Source: Alkalihalobacterium alkalinitrilicum (lineage in GTDB: Bacteria; Bacillota; Bacilli; Bacillales; Bacillaceae_F). Taken from it: DNA of 64,000 nucleotides. Below are positions 39,208-52,755 of the stretch, in pieces. Below the pieces are notes generated by a model. That model saw only the letters and a list, made by a program, of their open reading frames with translations. It was not told the DNA's origin and searched no databases. Each line of letters starts with the position of its first letter. Within the stretch, counting starts at the first letter, position 1. The position numbers were made by a program, and so were the translations under genes. The stretch is from positions 2,759,517 to 2,823,516 of the forward strand of contig NZ_KV917368.1 of the NCBI RefSeq assembly GCF_002019605.1, in the 5' to 3' direction.

Positions 39208-39845
39208 GAAAAGCGGAAGGCTCTTGGTCAGCCCCGACAAGTAAATGTTCTGACTGAACAAAAGTCCGCTTTTTGACTTTTTTCAGGTAGGTTATTTAAC
39301 CTCGAGGGGCTAGAGCCTGCAGCTAGACAAAGAAAAGCGGAAGGCTCTTGGTCAGCCCCGACAAGTAAATGTTCTGACTGAAGAAAAGTTCGCTTTTCAA
39401 CTTTTTTCAGGTAGGTTATTTAACCTCGAGGGGCTAGAGCCTGCAGCTAGACAAAGAAAAGCGGAAGGTGCCCGTTTAGCTCCGACAAGCAAATGTTCTG
39501 ACTGAACAAAAGTCCGCTTTTTGACTTTTTTCAGGCAGGTTATTTGACCTCGAGGAGCTGGCACCTGTAGCTAGACAAAGAAAAGCGGAAGGCTCTTGGT
39601 CGGCCCCGACAAGTAAATGTTCTGTCAGATCAAAGTCCGTTTTTTGACTTTTATCTGGCAGGTTATTTAACCTCGAGGGGCTAGAGCCTGCAGCTAGACA
39701 AAGAAAAGCGGTGGGCTCTTGGTCGGCCCCGACAAGTAAATGTTCTGTCAGATCAAAGTCCGTTTTTTGACTTTTATCTGGCAGGTTATTTAACCTCGAG
39801 GGGCTAGAGCCTGCAGCTAGACAAAGAAAAGCGGTGGGCTCTTGT
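39208..39845 (-). repeat. Tandem array of a 123-124 bp interspersed repeat (five full units plus a partial)
   Basis: Units begin (at GAAAAGCGG) at 39208, 39332, 39456, 39580, 39703 and 39826, giving periods of 124, 124, 124, 123 and 123 bp. The sixth stops after about 20 bp. Read on the minus strand each unit runs TTGTCTAGCTGCAG... to ...CCGCTTTTC, with internal CTCGAGG and GTCGGGGC blocks. There is no open reading frame. The unit ends resemble those of the 149-bp insert in tnpB at 51278-51426. It fills the 738-bp gap between yrrI and yrzQ. Confidence 0.95.
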
Positions 39846-50290: not shown

Positions 50291-51881
50291 ATGACAACCT
50301 ACAAAACTATGCAAATCTGGGTTAAAAACGGTCATCGGATCCATCCTTACTTTACTGAAATGTGTCAAAACGCAAAAAAATTGTATAACTCGACCCACTT
50401 TTATATTCGTCAGATTTTTACTGGACTCACGCAAGAAAAAGAATTACACTCTCTTCAAACAGGAGTTTTAGATACGTTACAAAAGCATTTCCCTAGGATG
50501 AATGATAACCAACTTCTAGCGTATCAAAAGAAATTAGCGAAAGAAAAAGCGAAACCTGTGGAAAAACAAAAAGAAATCAAATGCAATTTATTTAAAGGGC
50601 CATCAAAAGAGAAACCTTGTGTTGATTACAATTTACTAGATGCTCTTTTTAAATCGATGGCTCTACATGATTATCGGTCCATGCCTACTCAAAGTAGCCA
50701 AGGAATCATGAAAATAGTGTTTCAAAATTGGAAATCGTTTTACGCAAGCTTGAAAGAATACAAGATGAACCCTACTAAGTTTAAAGCAAGACCAAGAATT
50801 CCTGGTTACAGTCGTGCGAAAGAGAAAGAGGTTTCATTCTCGAACCAAGATTGTGTAATAAAAGAAAATAAATTTTTGAAATTTCCCAAAACAAAGGAAC
50901 GATTAAACATTGGGAAATTAGGTTTCACTGAAGGGAAACTGAAACAGGTGCGTGTCATCCCAAAGTATGGTCATTATGTAGTGGAGTTAATTTTCGAAGT
51001 TCGTACGGAACAAGGTATGAAACCAACGAAAAAGCGTTTCATGTCTGTTGATTTTGGTATTGATAACGTTGCAACCATTGTCACCAACACAGGTCGAATA
51101 CCTGTATTAGTGAAGGGCAAAAACATCAAATCTGTTAATCAACGCTACAACCAATTAAAAGCTCATTTTATAGGTATTCTTCGTCAAGGGAAAAATCCAA
51201 ACGAAGGTCCCTTTACTTCCAAGCAGTTAGAACAAATCAATAAAAAACGTTTTAATCAAATCAAAGATTTGTTTCATTGTCTAGCTCCAGCACCCAGCGA
51301 CTATCGAGACTTCCCTCACCTCCGTACGATAAGTCAACATCGACTCACTAGCGTTCTTCGTGTTTCCTTTATCTCCTACGGCTTAGTCCAGTCCGTACGT
51401 CGCTAAACGGGCGCTTGCGCTTTTCGATAAAGCGAGCCACCAAATCGAGAAAATCGCCTTAGAGGAAGATGTTGATACCATCATCATCGGCCAAAACAAA
51501 GAATGGAAACAACATTCGAATATGGGTAAAAGGAACAACCAATCATTCACAGCGATACCACATAGCTTTTTAATTCAGATGATAAAATACAAAGCTGAAA
51601 AACATGGAATTAAAGTCATCGTAAACGAAGAATTGTATACATCAAAAGCAAGCTTCTTAGATCATGACGAAATCCCCGTTTACGGAGAAGTTGATTCGAA
51701 AAAATCATTTTCGGGTAAGCGTATTAAGCGCGGACTTTATTGTTCGAAAAACGGAACCATTATTAATGCTGATGTGAATGGTGCGGCCAATATTATGAGA
51801 AAAGTGTTCCCTAAAGCCTTTAATGAACCGTTTACTAGTGTTCAAACTTTATTGCAACCCATAACGCTGGTGATTAAATAA
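50291..51881 (+). pseudogene. tnpB: tnpB interrupted by a 149-bp repeat
   Basis: A TnpB gene starting at ATG 50291 after GGAGGTAAG. It reads 329 codons to DLFH (51277), is broken by 51278-51428, and continues as KASHQIEKIALEED from 51429 to 51881. Removing 151 bp gives a clean 479-residue frame. RuvC residues are retained: Asp in MSVDFGIDNVATI, Glu in VNEELYTSKASF and Asp in NADVNGAANI. As it stands the product ends in the insert after about 372 residues and lacks the last two RuvC motifs. It differs clearly from the TnpB at 21-22 kb. Confidence 0.9.
51278..51426 (+). repeat. 149-bp non-coding mobile repeat inserted in tnpB
   Basis: The insert begins TGTCTAGCTCCAGC and ends GGGCGCTTGCGCTTTTCG. 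It is flanked by AT at 51276-51277 and AT at 51427-51428, consistent with a 2-bp target duplication. The empty site is exactly reconstructable from the tnpB frame. Its ends match those of the 124-bp units at 39208-39845 read on the minus strand (TGTCTAGCTGCAG ... GCTTTTC). The middle differs. No transposase is encoded, so it would be moved in trans. Confidence 0.85.
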
Positions 51882-52035
51882 AAGTAATCCCAAAGGCAAG
51901 ACCAATGGGATAGCGGGGTTGGGTGTTTTCAGCACACCAATGTGTCAACTCCACTGGTGGTTAATCGTCATCGTCAAAGTCGATACCCTAGAAACCCCCA
52001 CTTCAAATCCTAAAAGAATTAAGTGGCGGGAGTAT
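51882..52035 (+). ncRNA. Candidate omega RNA / right end of the second TnpB element
   Basis: The 154 bp after the tnpB stop have no open frame but contain structured repeats (CCACTGGTGG-type stems and the terminal CCCCCACTT hairpin). In related elements this region plus the tnpB 3' end is the guide RNA. Its guide would be the lutC 3' end. Expression is not visible from sequence. Confidence 0.4.
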
Positions 52036-52755
52036 TCATTTATCTTCTATTATAATGTACGTTGCTTTAACAGGACCATGAACACCGACCACTAAGTTCA
52101 TCTCGATATCAGCACTGTTACTAGGACCTGAAATAAAGTTTACACAAGAAGGAACTTTCCCTGTTTCTTCTTGAAGCTTATGAATATAGTGTGTTGCTTG
52201 TGTCATACGGGGTACAATCGTACTTTTCGGAATGAGTGCTACGTAATACTGTGGTAACAAACTCACCGATCTTCCTTTTCCATTACCACTAAGTAAAACA
52301 ACCGTTCCAGATTCAGCGAGTGTTATATCAGCGAATGTAATTCCGATATCCGCTCTTTCGGCTAATTTTATATTTTCTTCTCCGACATTAGTATCCCATA
52401 TATGAACATTAGTTCCTGTTGTATTCACTTTTTCATAATATTGATCAATTCCGTACTCTGCAAAACGTGGGTCATCCCAGCTTACAATCGATTTTGCTCC
52501 GTAACGACTCACGACCTCAGCTAATACTTGAGTTAACGTTTCCGTTGTCGCCATAGCCACATCGGTATGAATACGAGTACATTGATCCTTTAACACAGCT
52601 AATAGTTCGTCTTGAGTAAAATCTCTATAAACTTCCCATTGTGGCTGATGTTTCCAGTTCGGACGAGTAACTGGCTTCGTTTGTCGTTGTCGACCTAAGC
52701 TTTGAGCAACTTGGTTCAGAAATTTTTCTTTGTTATGCACTGTTCCAGTAGTCAT
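52036..52755 (-). CDS. lutC: Lactate utilization protein LutC
   Basis: A 239-residue LUD-domain protein (YkgG type), part of the LutABC iron-sulfur complex that oxidises L-lactate to pyruvate. It has the GITFADITLAESGTVVLLSG segment and the terminal region FISGPSNSADIEMNLVVGVHGP. Its start overlaps the lutB stop (TAATG). The stop codon lies at the end of the TnpB element, which abuts the gene. There are no cysteine clusters, as usual for LutC. Confidence 0.94.
   Translation of the reverse strand: MTTGTVHNKEKFLNQVAQSLGRQRQTKPVTRPNWKHQPQWEVYRDFTQDELLAVLKDQCTRIHTDVAMATTETLTQVLAEVVSRYGAKSIVSWDDPRFAEYGIDQYYEKVNTTGTNVHIWDTNVGEENIKLAERADIGITFADITLAESGTVVLLSGNGKGRSVSLLPQYYVALIPKSTIVPRMTQATHYIHKLQEETGKVPSCVNFISGPSNSADIEMNLVVGVHGPVKATYIIIEDK

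Follow-up and report, generated by a model that had tools for sequence, protein, structure and literature searches.

An insertion in tnpB and its empty site

We find that a tnpB gene in the window (the whole 64,000-nt stretch analysed, G000:C1:2759517-2823516) is interrupted by a 148-bp non-coding element that belongs to a widespread family of hairpin repeats. At a probability of about 0.48, a little short of even odds, we read the family as non-autonomous mobile hairpin elements that are mobilised in trans through a folded strand. Our confidence was lowered slightly, to this figure, since only a minority of array starts are shown to lie directly beside a hairpin.

The 5' part of the gene (50291..51277, + strand; 329 codons) matches the NCBIfam guided_TnpB model (E 2.7e-16, with a score of 59.9 bits that falls short of the curated cut-off, 100) and runs to DLFH. 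The frame then enters foreign sequence that contains a stop, and restarts with KASHQIEK in the 3' part (51429..51881, +). Deleting the intervening 151 bp (window 51278-51428) leaves 479 codons without a stop, as the first-pass annotation had reported. Deleting 148 bp instead also leaves the frame open, with one additional codon, GAT; because both removals keep the frame, tnpB alone cannot fix the ends of the insert. Two uninterrupted tnpB genes are present in G002, a genome of the same genus, with 73.3% and 72.7% protein identity over 479 residues. Neither contains the inserted stretch, and both present the empty site TTTCATAAAGC, i.e. TTTC-ATAAAGCC. The filled site reads TTTC-AT-[TGTCTAG...TTTTC]-G-AT-AAAG. 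The insertion is real: 151 bp were added with AT at both junctions, and the host gene itself supplies the empty site. No other insertion is resolved at single-base level with uninterrupted genes as evidence.

The insert consists of the element proper (labelled E150; TGTCTAGCTCCAGC ... GCGCTTGCGCTTTTC; 51278..51425, +), which reads TGTCTAG...CTTTTC and matches model R1 at 161 bits (E 1.7e-39), followed by GAT (51426..51428, +), whose AT repeats the AT to the left of the element (51276..51277, +). The presence of AT on both sides fits either a unit of 149 bp that duplicated 2 bp or one of 151 bp that duplicated nothing, the left AT being in the second case a coincidence. The core common to other copies is 148 bp, and the G that follows it is not conserved among them. 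As such, the original description of a 149-bp repeat with a 2-bp AT duplication stands for the gain of 151 bp and the AT at each junction, and not for the length of the unit.

The target within the tnpB coding sequence is a small hairpin, CAAATC-AAA-GATTTG, then TTTC (51257..51275, +). The element starts 6 nt past its perfect stem (CAAATC-AAA-GATTTG-TTTCAT), a distance of 3 nt when the imperfect outer pairs are included. Separately, the region 3' of tnpB (window 51883-52040) is hairpin-rich and contains ...CCCCCACTTC...GTGGCGGGAGT; judged by eye, we take it to be probably the right end and guide-RNA region of the tnpB element.

Extent and ends of the mobile unit

Copies from many genera have closely similar ends. 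In an alignment of 64 diverse copies, for which recognisable ends had been loosely required, the left end retains T3 C4. A6 G7 C8 and the right end is approximately GCTTTTC; independently of that requirement, both ends of the model are reached by 191 of the 306 distinct profile hits. The limits of the unit are also visible in 78 pairs of copies that are at least 94% identical (one further near-identical pair, sharing >60 nt beyond the ends, was omitted). Shared sequence stops 0–1 nt beyond the left end in 53 of these pairs and 0–3 nt beyond the right end in 68, and by the same criteria in 50 and 60, respectively, of the 67 pairs whose members lie in different loci. Small extensions on the right are expected, since the right flank of copies is generally T-rich. 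At least 8 nt are shared on the left in 17 of the 78 pairs; what they have in common there is either a leader or the terminal part of an adjacent member. We conclude that the mobile unit is sharply bounded and inserts as a discrete unit, and the earlier characterisation of a discrete, non-coding, mobile intergenic repeat of Bacillaceae is borne out.

A search of orthologous loci for empty sites gave 17 aligned site groups, two of which are readable base by base. One is tnpB, and the other is a copy in G002 (C20) that lies directly after a terminator T-tract; the corresponding site is occupied in G001 and unoccupied in both G000 and G003. The other 15 groups, too diverged or holding different members, were excluded from the length of the duplication. 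Genomes were sampled at one per species, a scale at which strain-level events are not readable.

These observations bear on whether the family transposes at all, or whether existing repeats merely spread through homologous recombination, gene conversion and tandem duplication. Several features would suit recombination: G045 and G084 hold different members at the same sites, array neighbours can be near-identical (11 of the 78 pairs lie within one locus), and the 17 pairs with at least 8 nt in common on the left have homology beyond the element. However, the gains inside a coding gene and behind a terminator are clean, with relatives empty, and the homology of most near-identical copies stops at the element ends rather than at random points. 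Spread by recombination is contradicted for the tnpB copy and survives only if that insertion is a unique accident, and we regard it as very unlikely.

Flanking matches and the question of a target duplication

The first-pass annotation had expected a constant AT-type 2-bp duplication. We compared the flanks of 182 distinct full copies, 89 of them solo (without a neighbouring member), with shuffled pairs. Exactly two flanking bases match in 9 of the 89 solo copies, against 8.6 expected, and a left AT occurs together with a right AT or nAT in 3 of 89, where about 2 are expected from the single frequencies (15 and 11). With both at chance, we reject a constant AT, or a 2-bp duplication, as a trait of the family. 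Matches of at least 3 bases are found in 6 solo copies at offset 0 (3.3 expected), 9 at offset 1 (3.9 expected) and 8 at offset 2 (2.8 expected), and in 35 copies at offset 0 when arrays are included (12.4 expected). Flank repetition is weak and variable, with no constant AT, and there is no fixed tetranucleotide in the left flank of the 89 solo copies.

The AT at both tnpB junctions would be explained by a non-autonomous element of IS110/IS1111 type, in which a dinucleotide core common to donor and target leaves the same two bases on both sides and terminal inverted repeats are lacking; head-to-tail arrays with short spacers would also agree with it. By contrast, the array spacers are not a constant dinucleotide, and the IS110 domain PF01548 is absent from 10 of 19 repeat-carrying genomes (G001, G002, G037, G038, G039, G041, G043, G045, G080, and G138) and present in 7 of 15 repeat-free ones. 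With the transposase missing from many carriers and no constant dinucleotide core, we reject a derivation from IS110/IS1111 as highly improbable.

Distribution and composition of the family

The first-pass annotation had proposed collecting further copies from the full genome. The window's own genome (G000, 5.5 Mb) does hold two other full copies, in addition to partial ones, and these are only 80% and 77% identical to the tnpB copy. The closest copies, 92–93% identical, are found in G002 and G003 of the same genus. Because G000 now has no close donor copy, the jump did not necessarily occur in this genome and may predate the arrival of the tnpB element.

BLAST matches occur in 19 of 61 genomes (own and relatives), several of which have ten or more. 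The 16-base inner motif is found in at least 119 stretches of named genomes, and the matches listed include the genera Neobacillus, Oceanobacillus, Siminovitchia, Virgibacillus, and Pontibacillus, and further Lentibacillus, Halobacillus, Cytobacillus, Jeotgalibacillus, and Bhargavaea. A covariance model built from the 64 copies, with ten candidates per genome scored, has matches at E <=0.001 in 209 of 299 genomes of the order, a count in which the weaker matches include other interior classes of the family and weak ones elsewhere are taken, unsorted, as model hits. In 86 of the 299 genomes the best match is below 1e-20. For this family, often multicopy in the sampled genomes, the tnpB copy proves an empty site, gives the ends exactly and shows a target.

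Overall, members are about 115–160 bp long, fall into several interior classes, and have common ends of approximately YGTCYAGCTnCAG ... CGCTTTTC; they occur in Bacillaceae and neighbouring families. The copy sets derive from 366 profile hits, reduced to 306 distinct and 191 full-length copies, of which 182 have recognisable ends and usable, distinct flanks and 175 are of normal length for folding. The alignment (A1) takes 64 of 81 cluster representatives, the 17 left out being redundant neighbours or having doubtful ends. The window itself contains a second locus, detected with the covariance model, in which five members of another interior class with the same two ends lie head to tail (39208..39823, − strand), each 121–122 bp long and separated by TT spacers. 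Some draft contigs (G001 C4 and C11; G003 C14 and C21) end inside or beside arrays, and counting copies in drafts may therefore give too low a number.

Neither the plasmids nor the phages searched yielded a match to the element, and no Rfam family matches the copies tested. A search of open-licence literature by sequence and topic found no description of the family, and we do not claim that it is absent from print.

The element folds as a conserved hairpin

The whole element forms a single long imperfect hairpin that closes 5 nt and 4 nt from its ends. The consensus fold has 31 pairs, 22 of which show pair-keeping changes on both sides. In the alignment 92.0% of paired cells are kept as pairs, compared with 79.6% in shuffles and 33–48% in slid structures. 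Cells changed on both sides number 265 versus 73.5 in shuffles, and none of 500 shuffles reaches as high a value. The relatedness of copies inflates covariation, and yet the slid structures, which share the same relatedness, fall far below. These comparisons show a conserved, covarying hairpin fold. The first-pass statement that there are no obvious terminal inverted repeats is literally true, as the ends TGTCTAGC / GCGCTTTTC are not inverted copies beyond AGC/GCT, and it overlooks that the whole element is a single hairpin. Two inner arms are nearly invariant among the 64 sequences: GATAAGTCAACATCG (51328..51342, +) and, opposite to it, CGTGTTTCCTTTATCTC (51359..51375, +). The nearly invariant inner motif GAGATAAAGGAAACACG / CGATGTTGACTTATC may include a tandem G-A.

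The predicted folds of the two strands differ. The bottom strand is more stable in 174 of 175 copies (mean −56.4 vs −44.8 kcal/mol), and in 80 of 81 cluster representatives with both RNA and DNA parameters. Other classes behave likewise, with 56 of 64 members favouring the bottom strand (49 of 53 for the 118–127-bp group). Non-Watson-Crick pairs are 230 G-T to 73 A-C in the structure predicted from the bottom strand and 32 G-T to 77 A-C in that predicted from the top strand, the latter figure being the more telling because prediction favours G-T on its own strand. As a control, random 148-nt stretches differ between strands by a mean of 6.2 kcal/mol, with no fixed sign. The copies are also related to one another, and when set against dinucleotide shuffles both strands stand out (mean z −3.93 and −4.77), with the bottom strand the more extreme in just 31 of 40. 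The predicted strand effect is real in sign and partly compositional. Going by these folding predictions, a folded single strand, either DNA or RNA, is favoured, and the bottom strand is likely the active one. For annotators there is a warning here, since a hairpin of this family resembles a terminator on one strand while its better fold lies on the other.

A bottom-strand transcript that folds would leave the same signs as a folded DNA strand. In that case the bottom strand would be transcribed into a structured RNA, and the family would spread through RNA, as a SINE-like retroposon, or be kept for an RNA function. The strand asymmetry, the tolerance of G-U on the bottom strand, the nearly invariant inner motif and the variable length of flank matches would all be consistent with this. 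Group IIC introns are targeted behind terminators, and the location of the family behind terminators may be analogous. Against an RNA route, reverse transcriptase (PF00078) is absent from 6 of 19 repeat carriers (G001, G038, G041, G043, G045, and G058) and present in 9 of 15 repeat-free genomes, one-sided truncation is not in excess (the left part is missing in 39 copies and the right part in 48), and the tested copies lack an Rfam match. We consider spread or retention through RNA unlikely.

Array starts are enriched behind terminators and other hairpins

Of 96 array starts, 45 are preceded within 130 nt by a top-strand intrinsic terminator and 22 by a bottom-strand one; 51 have, by the test used, no top-strand terminator inside that distance. 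In the controls, terminators are found downstream of 11 of 146 array ends (6 on the bottom strand) and at 127 of 610 gene ends. The first member begins 6 nt from the terminator stem in 4 of the 45 cases, at 20–67 nt in 34, and at 86–106 nt in 7. Stems of at least 8 pairs lie within 14 nt of 16 of 97 array starts versus 77 of 1312 control positions, and stems of at least 10 within the same distance of 8 of 97 versus 26 of 1312, leaving 81 of the 97 starts without a stem of at least 8 inside 14 nt. Array starts are clearly enriched just 3' of terminators and other hairpins, including other members of the family, though most have no directly adjacent hairpin; the tnpB site is among those that do.

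Within arrays, members follow one another head to tail with spacers of 0–5 nt in 113 of 116 junctions, most commonly 3 or 4 nt, and the two spacers that flank one member are often identical. As a member ends as a stem plus TTTC, a neighbour with the usual 2–4-nt spacer starts 6–8 nt after that stem. We infer that hairpins with a T-rich tail are the preferred targets, and that insertion at such targets builds the arrays. Arrays also change rapidly: G045 and G084 carry arrays of different members at the same site (L199/L211, L201/L216, and L203/L208), and array turnover between these two species of one genus is fast.

Orientation follows no simple rule with respect to neighbouring genes: at 72 sites, by a crude ORF call, both genes run in the sense of the element in 25, both are opposite in 20, and they are convergent in 18 and divergent in 9. 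Arrays are in the leading sense in 40 of 52 cases. This equals the bias of coding strands (74–79%) and does not by itself speak for movement coupled to replication.

Under the preferred reading, of a non-autonomous hairpin mobilised in trans, an enzyme would recognise one folded strand, probably the bottom one given its better fold and its G-T rather than A-C mismatches, free the unit, and attach it, a few nucleotides away, on the 3' side of a target hairpin's stem. Arrays would form because each copy, ending as a hairpin plus TTTTC, becomes a target for the next. Short matching flanks, including the AT at tnpB, would be a by-product of joining rather than a fixed 2-bp duplication, and a genome could carry copies without encoding the mobilising enzyme. 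Scattered hairpin repeats are turned in this way into testable questions, namely which strand moves, why hairpins are targeted, and which enzyme is responsible.

Candidate mobilising enzymes

The mobilising enzyme was not apparent to the first-pass annotation, which suggested looking for a transposase whose ends match. Across fetched loci that total 2.38 Mb with their overlaps, we find no credible gene bounded by both ends that could represent an autonomous version. Two hits of a scan for left end, gene and right end were judged spurious by eye, having poor ends and no transposase-like look. A MITE of a DDE transposon was rejected, with no end-matched autonomous element in the 2.38 Mb, ends that lack inverted repeats beyond AGC/GCT, and flank matches of variable rather than constant length.

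By mechanism, a Y1 enzyme remains the most natural kind of mobiliser. The family could be a REP-like element moved by a host IS200/IS605-type Y1 (HUH) transposase or a RAYT, which would bind the hairpin as single-stranded DNA and join it without a true duplication. A strand-specific fold would be expected of such an element, and an unpaired tag, mostly TGTC or CGTC, sits at the 5' foot of the hairpin, as in the CGTC-tagged REPs in the sections of PMC3733652 drawn on here. Y1 transposase (PF01797) has matches in 31 of 33 genomes; the two Y1-less genomes, G011 and G048, have no model match, and G011 has one weak BLAST match (4.8e-4). Y1 is also present in 39 of 44 repeat-rich genomes (44 of the 86 with the strongest matches). 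However, it is about as frequent in genomes without a model match (11 of 13) and absent from 5 of the 44 (G077, G136, G151, G180, and G233), and in G097, G114, G120, G215, and G026 it occurs only as short or stop-broken pieces, G026 nonetheless holding two copies 98.6% identical at different loci. None of 30 Y1 loci scanned has family ends on both sides; one clear end is found in L066 and in L074, each >1 kb away. A fixed target tetranucleotide, moreover, is lacking in the 89 solo copies. In this comparison Y1 presence shows no association with the repeats, and a mobiliser may have been lost after its activity. We regard movement by a host Y1 transposase or RAYT as doubtful. A GTAG REP or REPIN moved by a RAYT was rejected, the tag on the top strand being mostly TGTC/CGTC and not of GTAG type.

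None of Y1, IS110 and reverse transcriptase is a universal partner of the family. Although the window's own genome is rich in mobile genes, with 13 matches to Y1, 9 to IS110 and 22 to reverse transcriptase when pieces are counted, BLAST finds three full copies of the element there. A host function or an unrecognised enzyme remains the bolder reading. In its widest form, the family would be a widespread class of bacterial mobile DNA lacking its own transposase, moving as one folded strand, of DNA or its RNA, and targeting any hairpin with a T-rich tail; terminators would seed self-extending arrays, and mobilisation would depend on a conserved function of the host or on an unrecognised enzyme instead of an IS transposase. 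We put this forward tentatively, giving it perhaps a slim chance.

Comparison with known repeats

The bcr1 repeat of the Bacillus cereus group is about 150 bp long, non-coding, structured and mobile, and makes a 5-bp duplication. Compared by description only, the family shares with bcr1 the character of a structured, non-coding mobile Bacillus repeat of about 150 bp. Going by its title, bcr1 is specific to the B. cereus group, unlike the family described here.

The most similar repeats among published accounts found are CGTC-tagged REPs, BOX elements and stem-loop families such as Bhal-1. CGTC-tagged REPs have stems of 8–9 bp with a 4–5-nt loop, are mostly arranged as head-to-head dimers, and come mostly from alpha-Proteobacteria, according to the portions of the paper used here (PMC3733652). 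Set against those portions, the family has in common with them an unpaired CGTC/TGTC foot tag, a high copy number, a mainly intergenic location with some copies in genes, and no known dedicated transposase (PMC3733652). Unlike them, it consists of hairpins of about 115–160 bp in head-to-tail arrays and is found in Bacillaceae and relatives. In our alignment the CGTC/TGTC tag directly precedes the stem in most of the 64 sequences, and CATC, GATC, and AATC also occur. The element falls outside the REP families tested, from which it differs in length, in stem structure and in how dimers are arranged; its mode of action may be similar. The main text of a survey of HUH enzymes contains no words beginning with "Bacill" or "Firmicutes" (PMC6006769).

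BOX elements of Streptococcus pneumoniae, in the parts of their description relied on here, resemble the family in combining something like a leader with structured units repeated in tandem a variable number of times, in lying between genes, and in having no proven mobiliser (PMC3049150). Their modules are named boxA and boxC, and they have terminal inverted repeats that the paper likens to ISSpn2, features set against the family by description only (PMC3049150). Bhal-1 of Bacillus halodurans, also compared by description only and from a partial account, is a stem-loop family of 74 bp with 36 copies (PMC2267715).

Leaders between terminators and arrays

A genus-specific leader of about 35–60 nt (ATAAGAAAGTATAAA... 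or AGGAAATTATAAA...) lies between the terminator and the first member at L082, L027, L290, L280, L299, and other loci, and at the 34 starts found 20–67 nt from a terminator the leader ATAAGAAAGTATAAA... often intervenes. We rejected this leader as an empty attachment site: only 7 of 39 matches to its motif in 800 kb precede a member, and the other 32 lack the fuller leader pattern by a script filter. At several loci of the Oceanobacillus type the leader contains TGTGGATAA or a near form, which in our view resembles a DnaA box. At L189, two members lie tail to tail and create a palindrome, CGCTTTTTCTTATAC...ATAAGAAAAGCG, similar to how the leader begins. In G038, seven leaders are found in 800 kb, and each is followed by a family member.
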